From Aquificaceae bacterium (lineage in GTDB: Bacteria; Aquificota; Aquificia; Aquificales; Aquificaceae), in contig JALWEK010000095.1 of the NCBI GenBank assembly GCA_027014185.1, positions 1 through 7,760 of the forward strand: 7,760 nt of DNA, given 5' to 3'. The translations under genes and the position numbers were made by a program. How positions within the stretch are numbered: position 1 is the first letter of the stretch; each line of letters starts with the position of its first letter. This document shows, one piece after another, positions 2,360-7,760 of this stretch. Under the pieces are notes generated by a model that did not search any database, was not told the origin of the DNA, and saw only the letters and a list, made by a program, of their open reading frames with translations.

Positions 2360-3186
2360 CTAAGGGCTTCCCTCAGAACGGAGAGGTTGTACTCCATTAT
2401 GCTGAAGTAATCCGCCTTCCCATCCATAGGGATTATCTTCACGTTTATCTCGTAAGTCTTTATTCCGTACTCGCTCCTCAGGATATTGGCTATCTTCGAG
2501 GGCTGTCCGTAGATCGTAAGGACGAAGTCAAGTCCCCTACCTTCTATCTCCTTTACGAACCTGAGCATCTCCTTGGGAGATATCCCTCCGTGGACGTGTC
2601 CTCCGGACAGGTAAACCTGCTCAAGTCCGTAGTCTCTGGCAAGGTAGCCCAGGGCAGGATGAACCACGGGAAGGACCCTCACCCTACATCGGGCGAGGGT
2701 AGAGGAGTAGAGCCTGTCCAGATCCTCGAGCTTCTCTAAAACCTCCCGTAGGTTTCTCCTTAAGGTTTCCTTCCCTTCCAGATCTACGCTTACAAACCCC
2801 TCGTAGGCCTTCTTCGCTACGCTAACCATCCTTTTCGGGGATAGCCAGATATGAGGGTCCACGCCGATACCTCCCATCCTGATGAGCTCCATACCTTCTG
2901 AAAGCCTGACCACCTTCCCTTTGGAGATCTCCTCGATCTTTCGTTCCCATCCGCCGAGGGGCACCCCGCTTACGAAAACTATCTCGGCCTTGGACACCTT
3001 GAGTATATCGCTGACAGAGAGCTCGTAGTGATGGTAATCGGCCTTCGGGGGTATCAGGACCTCCGTATCGAACCTGGACCCTCCTATATGCTTGACCACA
3101 TCGTAGAAGGGATAAACGCTCACCAGGGCGAGATCCTTAGAGTACGACAGGGAAAGGAGAAGGAGGATCGGGATAAGGGGGATCAC
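2350..3186 (-). CDS. znuA: metal ABC transporter substrate-binding protein (ZnuA-like, cluster A-I)
   Basis: The periplasmic receptor captures the metal ion and delivers it to the ABC-3 permease. Of 278 residues, about 1-17 are a short hydrophobic export segment (IPLIPILLLLSLSYS) without a lipobox Cys and, unusually, without any Lys or Arg before the core. The likely ligands are His53 in HHYEL, His112 in DPHIW and His176 in HPALGYLARDYGL; the third is His, as in ZnuA, where Mn-type PsaA has Glu. Asp255 is a candidate fourth ligand. The His-rich charged loop of E. coli ZnuA is absent, but a His-x-His pair (GGHVHGG, His197 and His199) sits just before the conserved SPKEM. The start is GTG at 3186, overlapping the DJ-1 stop as GTGA; no better in-frame start was found upstream. 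Zinc preference is inference from the third His. Confidence 0.9.
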   Translation of the reverse strand: MIPLIPILLLLSLSYSKDLALVSVYPFYDVVKHIGGSRFDTEVLIPPKADYHHYELSVSDILKVSKAEIVFVSGVPLGGWERKIEEISKGKVVRLSEGMELIRMGGIGVDPHIWLSPKRMVSVAKKAYEGFVSVDLEGKETLRRNLREVLEKLEDLDRLYSSTLARCRVRVLPVVHPALGYLARDYGLEQVYLSGGHVHGGISPKEMLRFVKEIEGRGLDFVLTIYGQPSKIANILRSEYGIKTYEINVKIIPMDGKADYFSIMEYNLSVLREALRCM

Positions 3187-3707
3187 TTCCTGACCTCTTC
3201 CCCTTTGGAGAGTTTGGAGATCACGACCTTGATCATCTGAAGCATGGACTGGGGATCTGTTGCAGTGATGAGGTTCTTGTCCGCCTCCACCGGTTCTCCC
3301 GTGTAAAGGGCGCCGGCATTTTCGAGGTCGTCCTTTATGGCGAAGAACCCTGTCACCCTCCTTCCCTCAACTATCTTTGCCGATATAAGTACCCAAGGCC
3401 CGTGGCAGACTGCACAGACGAGCTTCCCCTCCTCGTAATGCCTTCTCACGAGGGATAGAACCTCTGTGTATCTTCTGAGCTTGTCCGGGGCGTACCCTCC
3501 AGGTATGAAGACGCAGTCGAAGGTATCGTGAACAACCTCCTTCAGGGGCACATCCGGCCTGAAGGTCATACCCCTCTTACCCCTGTACTCCCCCTGCTTA
3601 GGGGCAGCGGAGATAACGTCGAAACCTTCCTCCTTGAACCTCAGGTAGGGGTATATGAACTCTACGTCCTCCACCAGCTCCTCTAAGAGTATTAAAATCC
3701 TTTTCAT
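3183..3707 (-). CDS. DJ-1/PfpI family protein (putative deglycase, chaperone or peptidase)
   Basis: This is a single-domain class I glutamine-amidotransferase-like protein of 174 residues. It has the nucleophile-elbow motif AVCHGPW (99-105) with Cys101 and adjacent His102, and the acidic partner in EDVE (13-16, Glu13 aligning with PfpI Glu12). PfpI-type blocks FIPGGYAPDKLRRY (67-80) and IKDDLENAGALY (124-135) follow, so the catalytic pair is complete. Relatives have been described as intracellular peptidases, protein deglycases and stress chaperones; the exact reaction cannot be chosen from sequence. The ATG at 3707 begins directly at the canonical first strand (KRILILLEE). The frame stays open for 65 more codons upstream, but those residues have no DJ-1 counterpart and overlap the divergent gene. 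No Shine-Dalgarno sequence precedes it. It is the first gene of the metal-transport operon, its stop overlapping the next start by four bases. Confidence 0.88.
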   Translation of the reverse strand: MKRILILLEELVEDVEFIYPYLRFKEEGFDVISAAPKQGEYRGKRGMTFRPDVPLKEVVHDTFDCVFIPGGYAPDKLRRYTEVLSLVRRHYEEGKLVCAVCHGPWVLISAKIVEGRRVTGFFAIKDDLENAGALYTGEPVEADKNLITATDPQSMLQMIKVVISKLSKGEEVRK

Positions 3708-3725
3708 GGGTTTAAATTTTACTTC
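3708..3725. promoter_or_regulatory. compact bidirectional promoter core with symmetric -10-like element
   Basis: Only 18 bases lie between the divergent ATGs. They contain TTTAAATTTTA (3711-3721), nearly identical on both strands. Read leftward, TAAAAT (3721-3716) ends eight bases before the DJ-1 ATG; read rightward, TAAATT (3713-3718) ends seven bases before the coiled-coil gene ATG. Both distances are what a leaderless transcript needs, and neither gene has a visible ribosome site. Any -35 contacts would fall inside the opposite gene and are weak. Promoter function is inference from position and composition. Confidence 0.45.
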
Positions 3726-4868
3726 ATGCGGGAAGCCTTGACCCTCCTTTTTCTTATAATCTCCTACAACTTCCTCCTGTGGTACATAACTAAGTTCGAC
3801 CTCTCCCCTGTCCCCCTCTTTCCGGAGAACCCGTACCACGTGGTCCTGGTCTTTGCCTACAACTCTGTTCTCTACATAAGCTGGCTCTTTGGGGAGAGGC
3901 ACAGGGCCGTTCAGTGGATAGGATACCTCTTCTTCTTCCAGATAGTAGCCCTGAGCGTTTACTTTGAGGACCTTACCATAGTTGTTAGGGATCTACCGCC
4001 AGTGATATTCACCTTCGCCCTCGTTGTCCTGTTCGAGTCTCCGACTGAGAGGGAGATAAAGAGCATAGAGAAGGAGAGGGAAGAGCTCCTAGCGGAGATA
4101 GACAGGGTCAGGAGAGAGAGGGAAAGGGTCGAGGTACACCTGAGGATGCTGAAAAGCGAGATAGAGAAGCTCGAGAAGGAGAGGGAGGATAGAAAGGAAG
4201 AGGTTCCCAAAGAGCTCGAGGATAGGCTCAGAAAGCTCCAGGACGAGCTAAAGGAGTACAAGGAAAAGGAGAGCAGGCTGCTGGAGACCAACAGAAAACT
4301 GTTCCAGCTGCTCGAGATGGTTAAGGAGGATGCCGAGCCTGTGGGAAGCAAGGGCGAGCTCTCAAGCTTGAGAAGGGAGAGGAAGAGGCTCGTGAAGGAG
4401 ATTATAGGACTACAGGAGCTCGTGGACGTTTACGCGGACGAGAACGAGAGGCTGAAGGAGGAGAACGAAAACCTCAGGAGAAAGCTGGAGGAGCTGAACA
4501 TAGAGCTCGGGAAGATGGAGATCGAGATGAGATCGAAGGGAAAGGATATAAAAGAAGCCTACCGGGAGATCTTGGAGGAGCTGCTCGATCTTAAATTCAC
4601 AGACAGGGCCGTGGAAGAGTTTACAAAGCTCCCTGCCCAGAAAAAGAAGCTCTTTCTCAAGGAGCTTATTAGGTTTTCCCAGAGGGAGGGTCAGGAGAAC
4701 GTAGAACCCCTGGCGACAGTTCCAAACATATACAAACTCCGTTTCTCTGGCGGGAGGGTTTATCTCAGAAGACGGAACGGTTCCTGGGAGGTTGTGGGTC
4801 TCCTCGGCTCTGAGGACGATAAGGAGAAGGAGCGCTACATAAAGAACGTTTTGAGTAAAATAGATTAA
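3726..4868 (+). CDS. membrane-anchored coiled-coil protein with C-terminal RelE/ParE-like domain
   Basis: I do not recognise the full-length protein. Its 380 residues form three parts. Residues 1-103 hold four hydrophobic segments (about 4-21, 38-55, 63-80, 91-103). The Arg/His-rich loop GERHR (56-60) suggests that both ends face the cytoplasm. Residues 108-285 are a long charged coiled coil rich in Glu, Lys and Arg, with one break near 202-212 (DAEPVGSKGEL). Residues 288-378 resemble a RelE/ParE toxin fold: FTDRAVEEFTKLP, then a helix, NIYKLRFSGGRVYLRRR, EVVGLLG and a final helix with Tyr371. Against E. coli RelE by eye, Lys337, Arg339, Arg344 and Tyr371 fall near Lys52, Lys54, Arg61 and Tyr87, but the Arg81 position seems replaced by acidic residues. 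No antitoxin gene is adjacent. It heads the rightward gene set, 31 bases before the eRF1-like gene. The membrane and coiled-coil parts are clear; the RelE fold is likely, mRNA cleavage unproven. Confidence 0.8.
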   Translation: MREALTLLFLIISYNFLLWYITKFDLSPVPLFPENPYHVVLVFAYNSVLYISWLFGERHRAVQWIGYLFFFQIVALSVYFEDLTIVVRDLPPVIFTFALVVLFESPTEREIKSIEKEREELLAEIDRVRRERERVEVHLRMLKSEIEKLEKEREDRKEEVPKELEDRLRKLQDELKEYKEKESRLLETNRKLFQLLEMVKEDAEPVGSKGELSSLRRERKRLVKEIIGLQELVDVYADENERLKEENENLRRKLEELNIELGKMEIEMRSKGKDIKEAYREILEELLDLKFTDRAVEEFTKLPAQKKKLFLKELIRFSQREGQENVEPLATVPNIYKLRFSGGRVYLRRRNGSWEVVGLLGSEDDKEKERYIKNVLSKID

Positions 4869-4887
4869 ACGACACAAGCGAACTCAC

Positions 4888-4894
4888 AGGAGGA
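4888..4894 (+). promoter_or_regulatory. ribosome binding site deciding the eRF1-like start
   Basis: AGGAGGA, a near-perfect Shine-Dalgarno sequence, lies six bases (from the last G of AGGAGG) before the ATG at 4900, but only three before an in-frame TTG at 4897. The spacing favours the ATG. Confidence 0.75.
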
Positions 4895-4899
4895 AGTTG

Positions 4900-6123
4900 A
4901 TGGCAAGCTTAAGAGATACGTTGGAGAAACTCGCCAGCTTCAGACCAGAGGGGGCACTCGTCACATCCCTGTACCTGCATCTGAGGCCTGAGGAGAGACA
5001 GGACAACAAGTACCTGAGGATATACAAGGACATGGTAAAGGAGAAGAAGGCCGAGCTTGGTAGGAGGGAGCTTTCGAAGGATGTGCTGGAGTCCCTCGAG
5101 AGAGACTTCGAGGTAATAGGAGAGTTTCTATCGGAGCCCAAGAACCTCGAGGGATGCAGGGGTATAGCTGTATTCTCCTGCTCAAAAGAGGGGCTTTTCG
5201 AAGTGGTTAAGCTCCCGTACGTTTACAGAAGCAGGCTGATGGTCGCTCCGGATCCCCTTATAAGGGAGATAGCCGCCATAGACGAGGAGTTCGGAAGGGT
5301 TGGCGTCCTTCTCGTGGACAGGAAGCACATCAGGTACTTCCTGATGGATATAGAGACCATAACGGAGAGCGTTGATTTCCTGGAACCCCTCGCCACGCGT
5401 GCCCACAGGTTCCACAGCGGTGGTAGTGCTCTGAAGGGGGCTGAGGGAACATTCCAGCTCAAGATGCCCTCTCGAGGGGCGGCTCCCAATATGGTCCAGC
5501 ACTCATACGGCGAGTGGCGCTTCCACATGAGGATACAGGAGGAGTGGCACAGGGTTCTCAAGCTCGCTGCGGACGCCGCATTCGAGGACTGGAAGGCCAA
5601 CAAATTCGATAAGCTCGTTGTGGGAGGCTTTATAGAGGAAGGCCTCAGAGAGATAGAGAACCATCTCCACGCGTACCTTAAGGAGAGGCTGGTAGGCTAC
5701 ATAGAGGTAAACCCCGCGGAGGCCAAGCCTCACGAGGTAAGGGATAAGGTTCTGAACCTCCTCTGGGAAAAGGACAGGGAGCAGGAGCGCGAACTTGTAT
5801 CCGAACTCGACGAGCTTATAGGCAAGGGGCTTGCTGTAAACGGAACCTCAAGGGTTCTGGAGATGCTCTCGATAGGGAACGTGAGGACCGTTCTCATACC
5901 TGAGGACTTCGAAAAGCCCGGATACCTCTGTCCCGAGACACATCTGGTCTTCCTGAAGCCGGAATGTCCCCTTGAGGGCGAGGAACCCCTTGAGGTGGAG
6001 GACATAGTGGATGAGGTCATAGAGGAGGCTCTCGAGCAGAAGGCGAGCGTTGAGGTTATAGTGGACAGGGAGCTTCAGAAGAAGGTAGACGGGCTCGCCG
6101 CCTTCCTTAGATTTCGCCTATGA
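4900..6123 (+). CDS. bacterial eRF1-like protein (archaeo-eukaryotic release factor/Vms1-like superfamily)
   Basis: This 407-residue protein has the layout of the bacterial eRF1-like (baeRF) group, cytoplasmic proteins proposed to act in peptidyl-tRNA release or ribosome rescue. Residues 1-110 are a variable N-terminal region. Residues 111-265 resemble eRF1 domain 2, with GVLLVDRKHIRYFLM (135-149) and DKLVVGGFIEEGLREIENHL (237-256). Residues 266-407 resemble domain 3, an L7Ae-like fold, with GLAVNGTSRVLEMLSIGNVRTVLIPEDF spanning 310-337. Where eRF1 carries its catalytic GGQ loop, the equivalent loop (168-205) reads HRFHSGGSALKG: Gly-Gly is present but followed by Ser, not Gln. A Cys/His cluster (Cys344, His348, Cys356) may be the remnant of the zinc knuckle of some relatives. 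The start follows the AGGAGG site; the stop overlaps the NYN gene as ATGA. Superfamily fairly secure; catalytic status uncertain. Confidence 0.78.
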   Translation: MASLRDTLEKLASFRPEGALVTSLYLHLRPEERQDNKYLRIYKDMVKEKKAELGRRELSKDVLESLERDFEVIGEFLSEPKNLEGCRGIAVFSCSKEGLFEVVKLPYVYRSRLMVAPDPLIREIAAIDEEFGRVGVLLVDRKHIRYFLMDIETITESVDFLEPLATRAHRFHSGGSALKGAEGTFQLKMPSRGAAPNMVQHSYGEWRFHMRIQEEWHRVLKLAADAAFEDWKANKFDKLVVGGFIEEGLREIENHLHAYLKERLVGYIEVNPAEAKPHEVRDKVLNLLWEKDREQERELVSELDELIGKGLAVNGTSRVLEMLSIGNVRTVLIPEDFEKPGYLCPETHLVFLKPECPLEGEEPLEVEDIVDEVIEEALEQKASVEVIVDRELQKKVDGLAAFLRFRL

Positions 6124-6716
6124 ACGAAGAGAGGTTGATGATCTTCATCGATGGCTCTAACCTTTTCCACGGGATAAGGTATCTCAACATAAAGATAGAC
6201 TATACAAGGCTCGTGGAGTTCCTCAGGGAGAGCAGGAGGCTCGTGAGGACGTACTTCTACACGGCCGTTCCCCAGGACAGGGATGTCAAGAAGGGAACGC
6301 CCGAGTGGGAGAGCTTGGTACGCCAGAAAAGATTTCTCGATGAGCTCGCCCTCTCGGGCATCAAAGTTAAGCTCGCCAAACTCAGGAAGTTGCCCTCGGG
6401 AGAGTTTATAGAGAAGGAAGTGGACATAATGCTCGCTACGGATATGCTCTCCCTGGCTTTCCAGGACGCTTACGACACCGCCATACTGGTGAGTGGGGAT
6501 AGCGATTTCATCTACACGGTCGAGGAGATCCAGAGGATAGGAAAGAGGGTGGAGAACGCCACCTTTAAGAAGACGAGCTCCTACAACCTGAGGAAGGCAT
6601 GTGACAGATTCATACTACTGGACAACTTTATAGACCGCTTCACCTACGAGGAAAAGCCCGCTCTCTACGAGGAGGTGGGCTTCTGGGCGAAGATAAAGAG
6701 TCTCTGGAAGAGATGA
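6120..6716 (+). CDS. NYN domain protein (PIN-like endoribonuclease family, LabA/DUF88 type)
   Basis: NYN domains have the PIN nuclease fold and cleave RNA using metal ions held by clustered acidic residues. In this 198-residue protein the sites are intact: FIDGSN (9-14, Asp11 and Asn14), KEVDIMLATDML (99-110, Asp102 and Asp108) and VSGDSDF (124-130, Asp127 and Asp129). The domain fills about 5-173; the last 25 residues are a short tail ending in a basic, aromatic helix (FWAKIKSLWKR). Its ATG overlaps the eRF1-like stop by four bases (ATGA), and its own stop overlaps the rdgB start the same way, so the three genes are probably translationally coupled. Bacillus Rae1 is a NYN-type enzyme that cuts mRNA in the ribosomal A site; similarity of role here is inferred from context only. 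The nuclease fold is confident, the RNA target unknown. Confidence 0.88.
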   Translation: MNEERLMIFIDGSNLFHGIRYLNIKIDYTRLVEFLRESRRLVRTYFYTAVPQDRDVKKGTPEWESLVRQKRFLDELALSGIKVKLAKLRKLPSGEFIEKEVDIMLATDMLSLAFQDAYDTAILVSGDSDFIYTVEEIQRIGKRVENATFKKTSSYNLRKACDRFILLDNFIDRFTYEEKPALYEEVGFWAKIKSLWKR

Positions 6717-7315
6717 AGATCCTTGTAGCCACCACCAACCCCGGAAAGCTAAGGGAGATAGAGAGGATCCTGAGTCCTCTCGGGTACGAAGTTGTGGAAC
6801 CCCCTGAAAAACTGGAGGTTGAGGAGACCGGAAGCACCTTCTTGGAAAACGCCTACCTAAAGGCAAAGGCCTACCACGACAGGTTCGGGCTTCCGGCCCT
6901 AGCGGACGATTCAGGTCTGGTCGTGGAAGCACTCGAAGGCTATCCAGGCGTCTTCTCCAGCAGGTTTTACTCCTTGGAGTTCGGTGGAAGGGAGGAACTC
7001 AAAGGCTCCATAGACAAGGCTAACGTAAGAAAGCTACTCAGACTCCTGGAGGGAATAGAGAACAGAGAGGCAAAATTCGTTGCCTTCGTAGTTCTATACT
7101 TTCAGGATAGAGGCCTCTTTGCCTCCGGGGAGTGCAGGGGAGAGATAGTCGAATCCCCGAGGGGCTCCGGAGGTTTTGGTTACGATCCGGTCTTTAAACC
7201 CGAGGGCTACGACAGAACCATGGCGGAGCTGGAACCTGAGGAGAAGGACAGAATATCTCACAGGGGAAGGGCTTTAAGAAAGCTCGCCGACCTACTGGAA
7301 AGATGTAATCTGTAG
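6713..7315 (+). CDS. rdgB: non-canonical purine NTP pyrophosphatase (RdgB/HAM1 family)
   Basis: This cytoplasmic house-cleaning enzyme hydrolyses dITP, ITP and XTP to monophosphates and pyrophosphate, keeping deaminated purines out of DNA and RNA. The 200-residue length is normal for the family. Hallmarks are ATTNPGKLREI (6-16), ETGSTFLENAYLKA (38-51), ALADDSGLVVEAL (62-74) with the catalytic and metal-binding Asp65/Asp66 pair, YPGVFSSRF (77-85), GGFGYDPVF (153-161) and SHRGRAL (182-188). All known catalytic positions appear intact. The ATG overlaps the NYN stop as ATGA, and the stop lies four bases before the gamma-like gene, so it sits in the middle of a five-gene run. The placement may be convenience or may link nucleotide-pool quality to the RNA-handling genes upstream; nothing in the sequence decides this. 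Confidence 0.96.
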   Translation: MKILVATTNPGKLREIERILSPLGYEVVEPPEKLEVEETGSTFLENAYLKAKAYHDRFGLPALADDSGLVVEALEGYPGVFSSRFYSLEFGGREELKGSIDKANVRKLLRLLEGIENREAKFVAFVVLYFQDRGLFASGECRGEIVESPRGSGGFGYDPVFKPEGYDRTMAELEPEEKDRISHRGRALRKLADLLERCNL

Positions 7316-7319
7316 GTAG

Positions 7320-7760
7320 GTGGGTATAAGAGAGAAAATAAGAACACTTCAGGCCCTGAGGAGCACCCTAAACGTTTGGGAAGTCATAGCTGTAAACAGG
7401 TACAGGAAGTACAGCTCGATTGTAGGAGCGCAGCTCCCATACTTCCTCAGACTCCAGGAGGTTTTAGAACATCTCTACGCCCTGTACCCCGGCGTTAGGA
7501 CGGATCTCCTCCAGATTAGAGATGAGAGGAGGATCGACCTGCTTGTACTTACCTCGGACAGGGGCTACGTTGGAGACTTCATCACGAGAACCATAAGGTT
7601 CATGGAAAAGTTTATGGAGTACAAAAGGGACAGAGAGATAAACCTGTTCATAGCGGGTAGGAGAGGGGCATCGATCGGGCTGGTGAAGAAGGGGGCGGTT
7701 ATCTTTGAGGATGTTCTCACGAAGGACGTGAACTGGGAGGTTGTAGGTGAGATAAGGAAG
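7320..7760 (+). CDS. divergent F1-ATPase gamma-subunit-like protein, N-terminal part
   Basis: The 147 visible residues follow the ATP synthase gamma pattern. An N-terminal helix IREKIRTLQALRST (3-16) lines up with the canonical rotor-shaft start, and LLVLTSDRGYVGDF (74-87) with the family block TSDRGLCGGF. An alpha/beta stretch with LFIAGRRG (109-116) follows. It is strongly diverged: NRYRKY (26-31) replaces the usual AxKLRxA segment, and GYVGDF replaces GLCGGF. The gene runs off the right edge, so the C-terminal rotor helix is unseen. The GTG at 7320 is used because it gives exactly the canonical N-terminal length and an in-frame TAG lies immediately before it; the ribosome site (AGGTAGG) is poorly spaced, so coupling to rdgB, four bases upstream, is likely. 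No alpha, beta or other atp genes are visible before it. It could be the organism's gamma subunit or, more likely, a paralog. Confidence 0.75.
   Translation, partial: MGIREKIRTLQALRSTLNVWEVIAVNRYRKYSSIVGAQLPYFLRLQEVLEHLYALYPGVRTDLLQIRDERRIDLLVLTSDRGYVGDFITRTIRFMEKFMEYKRDREINLFIAGRRGASIGLVKKGAVIFEDVLTKDVNWEVVGEIRK

Follow-up and report, generated by a model that had tools for sequence, protein, structure and literature searches.

Gene order and predicted folds at an Aquificaceae locus suggest a possible membrane-tethered module for translation shut-down and ribosome hibernation

What, if anything, do the products of three adjacent genes of an Aquificaceae bacterium do together? We examined this question in a 7,760-nucleotide stretch of DNA, hereafter the window, which is part of contig C95 (JALWEK010000095.1) of a fragmented 1.65-Mb genome. 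All three genes lie on the + strand. The first (ccRelE; positions 3726-4868) is an open reading frame (ORF) of 380 amino acids that encodes a predicted membrane coiled-coil protein with a C-terminal RelE fold, the second (4900-6123; 407 amino acids) encodes a Balon-like protein of baeRF family 12, and the third (6120-6716; 198 amino acids) is a gene of the NYN (LabA-like) nuclease family. A previous reading of the letters alone (the sequence-only reading) had placed the genes next to each other with a 31-base gap and an ATGA overlap, and the ORFs had exactly these gaps, 31 and -4 bases. Our tentative answer to the question is that the three products may form a module, tethered to the membrane, that shuts translation down and puts ribosomes into hibernation, a possibility that we put below an even chance. 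In what follows, the Aquificaceae are coded f1, their sister family f2, and a further family of the phylum f3; g numbers are genera and G numbers are genomes. Statements attributed to papers cited by PMC number refer to parts of those papers.

The predicted architecture of ccRelE consisted of four transmembrane helices (residues 2-102; 3729-4031, +), a coiled coil that appeared as long helices in the structure model (residues 106-270; 4041-4535, +), and a C-terminal RelE-fold domain (residues 288-380; 4587-4865, +). Loop 2 was more basic than loops 1 and 3 across the alignment (a mean of 2.00 Lys plus Arg residues, versus 0.47 in loop 1 and 1.34 in loop 3, the latter two also being more acidic), and for this reason the C-terminus was predicted to be cytoplasmic. 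We infer from these predictions that ccRelE is located in the membrane with its RelE domain in the cytoplasm.

The C-terminal domain of ccRelE is RelE by predicted fold. Its topology in the model was the RelE topology given in PMC11980606. The best Foldseek matches were Methanocaldococcus jannaschii RelE 3bpq (TMt 0.70, E 3.6e-3) and Thermus thermophilus 2khe (TMt 0.71, E 1.7e-2); these two and 3g5o led the order, and ParE-type toxins and Escherichia coli RelE were within the top ten. A second structural alignment (VIA-align) was dominated by coiled coils and barely probed the RelE domain. When a profile of 28 C-terminal domains was compared to PDB sequences, the top four matches were RelE (E 0.0016-0.0025), with E. 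coli RelE first, and hhalign aligned the same profile to K-12 RelE over 60 columns (E 0.00019, probability 48%). As a single sequence, ccRelE produced just weak matches of the coiled-coil type in Pfam, NCBIfam, and PADLOC, and those in Pfam and NCBIfam were under the curated cut-offs. Weak ParE_toxin and Gp49 matches were observed in 3 and 4 of the 28 ccRelE members, respectively, and the Pfam ParE_toxin model (PF05016), to which E. coli RelE belongs (PMC11980606), gave the ccRelE of G049, a genome of the sister family, 25.2 bits against a cut-off of 23. Thus, the membrane coiled coil ending in a RelE/ParE-like domain that had been read from the letters was recovered in the model, and RelE led both the Foldseek and the profile matches.

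Eight residues of ccRelE (K337, G342, G343, R344, Y346, G358, E363, and K368) were invariant in 28/28 members, and K366 was present in 27/28. In the MAFFT pairing, RelE residues K52, K54, and R61 corresponded to ccRelE K337, R/K339, and R344 (28/28 in each case), and R81 corresponded to K366 (27/28); Y371 was also among the conserved positions of the domain. In RelE, the residues of greatest importance are R61, R81, and Y87, with K52 and K54 contributing less (PMC2807027).

The spacer between ccRelE and the Balon-like gene (4869-4899, +) is 31 bases long and too short for an antitoxin gene. A free same-strand ORF of 40-129 amino acids within 150 bases was found at just 2 of 37 ccRelE loci, a search that did not cover distant antitoxins; one of these ORFs was the N-terminal half of a broken NYN gene, and the other was 44 amino acids long. 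We rejected a classical type II toxin-antitoxin pair because the 31-base spacer is followed by the Balon-like gene and no antitoxin-like neighbor was seen. The ccRelE tree (36 rows, quick method) followed the genera, with 9 changes for 10 groups, which is the minimum, although g11 alone needed 2; among these sequences, this pattern fits a mainly vertical descent. In contrast to the near-constant ccRelE of f1, ParE/RelE-family matches were patchy (23/61 relatives, including G049, where the match is ccRelE itself). Matches to the RelE-domain profile were present in 63/136 genomes of the phylum, and in G047, G068, and G069 the match was a short free RelE-like frame.

For the second gene, we took ATG 4900 as the start; the ORF caller starts at the in-frame TTG 4897. 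The protein matched Pfam baeRF_family12 (E 2e-21, 77.5 bits; cut-off, 27.7), baeRF_family10 (E 4e-14, 53.5 bits; cut-off, 27.1), and eRF1_3 (E 7e-7, 30.1 bits; cut-off, 25.8), and the NCBIfam Msmeg1130 hibernation-factor model aligned to it over positions 19-387 of 387. The single sequence had no match among PDB sequences, and a profile was needed. The structure model (mean predicted local distance difference test score of 85.5, with low confidence at residues 167-188) had mycobacterial Balon Msmeg1130 as its top solved match (E 1.2e-20, TM 0.66/0.71), followed by aRF1, Rv2629, and Psychrobacter urativorans Balon, the last two at ranks 4-7. Structure prediction thus returned both folds that the sequence-only reading had anticipated, RelE-type and eRF1-type, the latter in its Balon form. 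That reading had also brought in Vms1-type relatives. The eRF1-like character of the gene stood, given the Pfam matches and the aeRF1-type fold; the Vms1-type affinity did not, as the fold was closest to Balon and GGxSQ, the catalytic-loop motif of two VLRF families (PMC6514570), was found in 0/47 homologues. For the gene 2 product, the most fitting description is a Balon-like protein of baeRF family 12.

The GGQ and NIKS motifs were likewise found in 0/47 Balon-like homologues, and Balon has been described as having neither (PMC10901736). With no GGQ in 47 sequences, we rejected peptide release through GGQ. Q200, which is near the place of the GGQ loop, was Gln in 40/47 only. Balon-type proteins have an HP motif that contacts the decoding center. 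An HP pair, which may or may not correspond to this motif, was present in 21/47 homologues; among 12 of these, 11 had it at positions 256-257 and one at 116. The middle-domain region around the GGQ-loop place (residues 167-211; 5398-5532, +) was strongly invariant: 17/45 columns did not vary, versus 36/362 columns elsewhere (47 sequences; Fisher P 5.5e-6, with borders chosen post hoc from the alignment), and the region was 45 residues long in 46/47 sequences. In baeRF families 1, 2, and 6, which are widely distributed, the same region is poorly conserved (PMC6514570), which suggests that in the Aquificaceae lineage residues 167-211 are under special constraint. In the 47 sequences, which represent one lineage, this region perhaps contacts the peptidyl-transferase center. 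Two cysteines, C344 and C356, were invariant in 47/47 proteins; they belong to the C-terminal domain, which in related factors has a zinc ribbon or a possible remnant of one. In public sources, several Balon-like proteins (P0043, P0045, P0062, and others) carry the name peptide chain release factor 1 or subunit 1, though they are without GGQ.

The third gene is coupled to the second by an ATGA stop/start overlap (6120-6123, +; gap of -4), and the same 4-base overlap was present in 24/28 genomes. Its product matched Pfam NYN PF01936 with an E value of 1.7e-32 (113.3 bits; cut-off, 24.2) and the PADLOC LabA-like NYN model with an E value of 3.6e-14. Residues D11, N14, D102, D127, and D129, which we take to be catalytic, were kept in 38/38 orthologues. 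Rae1 is a YacP-type NYN protein. The sequence-only reading was upheld in calling this protein a NYN nuclease; its analogy to Rae1 was rejected, as the protein had no match to a YacP-type model and at E values up to 1 matched just PF01936 and DUF7675 (E 0.078). PADLOC HEC-09, a candidate-defense label, also matched the protein (2.6e-18). Many genomes of the order have a second, shorter NYN paralogue, such as that at G007:C1:1119136-1119618 (about 167 amino acids, 28-41% identical). The NYN copy beside ccRelE in G020 (L109, G020:C151) has an internal stop codon, which reflects either an assembly error or decay.

Does this order persist in relatives? The nearest relatives in a protein search were Aquificaceae and Aquificota metagenome assemblies, and the named proteins were from Hydrogenivirga, Thermocrinis, and Aquifex. 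Many of the genomes compared are incomplete metagenome assemblies, in which absence is weak evidence. Among 64 f1 genomes, we counted ccRelE in 55, the Balon-like gene in 45, and the NYN gene in 56. The NYN gene was located directly after the Balon-like gene in 45/45 f1 genomes that contained both (9 genera). The ccRelE gene was directly upstream of the Balon-like gene in 33/43 f1 genomes with both (6 genera) and elsewhere in the other 10 (G014, G018, G022, G023, G027, G028, G031, G082, G083, and G086); G013 was counted from two contigs, each holding part of the Balon-like gene. In genus g8, where ccRelE is apart from the Balon-like gene (L126 and L127; G030 and G023), ccRelE was still divergent to znuABC-like genes, as it is in the window.

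Seven genomes carried ccRelE and NYN with no counted Balon-like gene. In six of them (G003, G009, G010, G020, G076, and G080) ccRelE was directly upstream of the NYN gene, and one of these six adjacencies had a 4-base overlap. In the case of the seventh, G084, a scrap of the Balon-like gene was located just upstream of the NYN gene and ccRelE was on another contig. In the NYN tree (38 rows), the rows without a Balon-like gene needed at least 3 changes by starred branches and 5 by parsimony, with modest support inside the window's genus. Judged from this tree, the Balon-like gene was probably lost more than once.

As a control, we used the genes flanking these loci, which is a weaker control than a genome-wide background. 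Loci were read in 16 Balon-bearing f1 genomes of genera other than that of the window; of these, 16 had the Balon-NYN adjacency, 9 had the ccRelE-Balon adjacency, 7 had the NYN-rdgB adjacency, and none had the DJ-1 gene upstream. Because of these counts, the Balon-NYN tie stands out clearly and the ccRelE tie mildly.

Outside this pattern, genus g10 has the NYN gene, and neither ccRelE nor the Balon-like gene was present in any of its 5 genomes. An NYN orthologue was present in 9/17 f3 genomes, and ccRelE was present in 0/17. One further f3 genome, G111 (L148, G111:C63:540-1757), has a Balon-like gene 62% identical to that of the window and alone in its family in the phylum search, which is either a gene transfer or an assembly mix-up. 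The f2 NYN orthologue (L113, L114, and L116) adjoins a yidC-like gene, and the g10 orthologue (L110 and L111) follows secA-like and sugar-phosphate-mutase-like genes; these labels and the others for f2 and f3 neighbors (murF and the like) were read from the sequence with no family search.

How might the three products act together? In the module that we tentatively propose, membrane-anchored ccRelE would cleave mRNA at the A site of the ribosome and then leave. The Balon-like protein, with EF-Tu(GDP), would then fill the emptied A site, plugging and protecting it, and removal of the cleaved mRNA would fall to the NYN protein. In place of an antitoxin, the membrane and coiled-coil part would restrain RelE until a stress signal arrives. 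RelE cuts A-site mRNA (PMC2807027), and Balon, together with EF-Tu(GDP), occupies the A site whether or not mRNA is present (PMC10901736); because both use the A site, the two proteins would have to act in turn. Control from the membrane is suggested because the RelE domain is without an antitoxin and is carried on a membrane coiled-coil stalk. Both catalysis and the joint action of the three products are things that we infer. The retention of ccRelE and NYN together where the Balon-like gene has been lost fits an arrangement in which the two nucleases are the core and Balon is the protector. The genome also encodes an HPF-type factor, so the module would be an added, membrane-side hibernation layer. 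HPF was found in 58/61 relatives, and we therefore rejected the idea that the Balon-like protein substitutes for it. In its most specific form, the proposal is that an antitoxin-free, vertically inherited RelE, carried on a membrane coiled-coil stalk and gated by a membrane signal, cuts the A-site mRNA of membrane-side ribosomes, that a Balon relative with an invariant non-GGQ loop for the peptidyl-transferase center seals the opened A site, and that a translationally coupled NYN nuclease destroys the fragments; we regard this version as doubtful.

Several findings weigh against the proposed module. The ccRelE model had a predicted template modeling score of 0.36, the Foldseek E values for the RelE fold were 3.6e-3 or worse, with none at 0.001, and the window's own RelE domain had no Pfam match. 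The position of RelE R81 is Lys in ccRelE, and Y371 (24 Y, 3 F, and 1 V of 28) aligns one position N-terminal to the residue paired with Y87. The Balon-like protein scored far under the NCBIfam equivalog cut-offs for hibernation factors (MSMEG_1130, 53.5/480 bits; AOC03_06830, 53.8/330 bits; Rv2629, 27.4/320 bits), and we did not file it under those subfamilies. The HPF gene is not beside the Balon-like gene. The Balon-like gene is dispensable in the sense that it is gone from several genomes that keep its neighbors, and in the control the ccRelE link was not much firmer than the rdgB link. In f2 (7 genomes, of which 5 had Balon and 5 had ccRelE, either intact or in fragments), the Balon-like, ccRelE, and NYN genes were on separate contigs. 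Thus, the expectation of the sequence-only reading that the neighborhood would be conserved was borne out in part: the order recurred across f1 genera, but ccRelE was elsewhere in the 10 genomes named above and the genes were scattered over contigs in f2.

These findings leave room for other explanations. It is somewhat unlikely, in our judgment, that the working unit consists of the Balon-like and NYN proteins only, with ribosome hibernation coupled to the removal of mRNA or rRNA fragments and ccRelE as a frequent neighbor with its own job. The unbroken Balon-NYN adjacency, set against the less regular ccRelE-Balon adjacency, and the recurrent 4-base overlap favor such a pair, but the position of ccRelE directly upstream of NYN in 6/7 genomes without a Balon-like gene points to a ccRelE-NYN tie, and genus g10 and the 9 f3 genomes have NYN but no Balon. 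The RelE domain could instead be a non-catalytic ribosome dock, with ccRelE holding idle or stalled ribosomes at the membrane for the Balon-like and NYN proteins to act on. We consider a dock unlikely. A widespread ccRelE that follows the genera with no antitoxin-like neighbor, where ParE/RelE-family matches are otherwise patchy, would suit a dock, as would the Lys at the R81 position and the shifted Tyr. However, the conservation of K337, R344, and K368 in 28/28 members and of K366 in 27/28 is seemingly more than a dock needs, and RelE and Balon would compete for the A site.

Both explanations grant the locus a joint role, which may not exist at all: these could be unrelated housekeeping genes that share a transcription unit. 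The presence of rdgB and an ATP-synthase-gamma-like gene in the run, the similar frequencies of the NYN-rdgB and ccRelE-Balon adjacencies outside the genus (7/16 versus 9/16), and the different contigs in f2 argue for this view. On the other side, all three fold families have ribosome- or RNA-acting members, and Balon and NYN were never separated in 45 genomes while their flanks changed; we consider the absence of a joint function quite unlikely. The sequence-only reading had suggested a membrane-associated ribosome-rescue or translation-stress module, and a rescue or quality-control role would have RelE cut at stalled ribosomes, the eRF1-like protein free the nascent chain, and the NYN protein degrade the mRNA. 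The invariant region of constant length around the GGQ place is compatible with such a role, as is the match of gene 2 to Pfam baeRF_family10, a family said to retain the glutamine and to be perhaps active (PMC6514570). Against it, Q200 is not constant, GGQ and GGxSQ are missing from all 47 homologues, and the fold is closest to Balon; we judge rescue very unlikely. Because of this fold and these missing motifs, translation shut-down with hibernation is favored over rescue or nascent-chain release.

The surroundings of the three genes are as follows. The operon-like run extends past the NYN gene into the rdgB/HAM1 XTP pyrophosphatase gene (6713-7315, +), which follows NYN with another 4-base ATGA overlap. 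The three genes of interest would presumably be on one transcript, and rdgB is probably outside the proposed mechanism. After rdgB is an ATP-synthase-gamma-like gene (7320-7760 in the window; L031, 7320-8491), which is split over two frames separated by unread bases just past the window end; the part seen scored far under the NCBI cut-offs for a standard gamma subunit. A DJ-1/PfpI gene and a set of znuABC-like genes are on the divergent side of the window; of these, the family search covered ZnuA and DJ-1 only. With its long start, the DJ-1 ORF (3186-3902, -) overlaps ccRelE (3726, +). If DJ-1 starts at the Met at 3707, just before its domain, 18 bases separate the divergent start codons, which is too little room for two promoters.

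If the proposed module is real, RelE-type mRNA cutting and Balon-type hibernation, which have been studied apart, are joined in one inherited gene run, and a membrane stalk, not an antitoxin, restrains a RelE domain. The module would also open a testable question, namely, how the A site is emptied before a hibernation factor fills it, and it would matter for annotation, given the release-factor names that several of the Balon-like proteins carry.

How does the locus compare with known systems? The gene 2 product shares with Balon, Msmeg1130, and Rv2629 (PMC10901736) the three-domain aeRF1-type fold, the lack of GGQ and NIKS, and the near full-length alignment to the MSMEG_1130 model. It differs from them in its low NCBIfam scores, in a sequence nearer to baeRF family 12, and in its strongly invariant loop region. 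Its neighbors are ccRelE and NYN, whereas those of Balon are RaiA, Hsp20, RtcB, and other stress genes (PMC10901736). HPF was named as the conserved baeRF neighbor by Burroughs and Aravind (PMC6514570). The word NYN was absent from the main text of PMC6514570, and Aquifex or Aquific was absent from that of PMC10901736.

The comparison of ccRelE with E. coli RelE of type II toxin-antitoxin systems (PMC2807027) shows the same fold topology and basic residues at the K52, K54, R61, and R81 positions; the differences are that the ccRelE domain is the C-terminal part of a predicted membrane coiled-coil protein, has no antitoxin-like neighbor, follows the genera, and has the Lys and the shifted Tyr described above. 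ToxM-ToxR membrane BECR-fold toxins (PMC11980606) also combine a RelE-type fold with a transmembrane part. In ToxM, however, the toxin domain is N-terminal, the C-terminal domain is periplasmic, and an antitoxin gene is located upstream (PMC11980606). We did not assign ccRelE to ToxM-ToxR because its RelE domain is C-terminal and no antitoxin-like neighbor was seen. The survey of Gerdes (2025) omitted many multidomain proteins because no antitoxin was identifiable or the members were too few (PMC11980606).

Our literature search on Cami1, RelE, Balon, NYN, LabA, and eRF1 (including the parts used of PMC4342817 and PMC4229858) did not find a description of the three-gene set. Within that search, the locus is a new combination of known parts.

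Two further systems resemble ccRelE in architecture. Cami1 pairs a CARF sensor with RelE. The match of the ccRelE domain to Cami1 on the 70S ribosome (8phj) is a fold match only, at rank 16 with an E value of 0.59, and the likeness is a RelE domain on a larger protein, which in Cami1 is ribosome bound. No CRISPR family was found among the eight window proteins scanned, and in ccRelE the sensor would be the membrane and coiled-coil part. RNase Y has a membrane anchor, a coiled coil, and a nuclease domain. A role for ccRelE as an RNase Y substitute was rejected because RNase Y was above the cut-off in 56/61 relatives, including this genome. What the two proteins have in common is a membrane anchor, a coiled coil, and a C-terminal nuclease-type domain, which is of the RelE fold by prediction in ccRelE and KH-HD in RNase Y.

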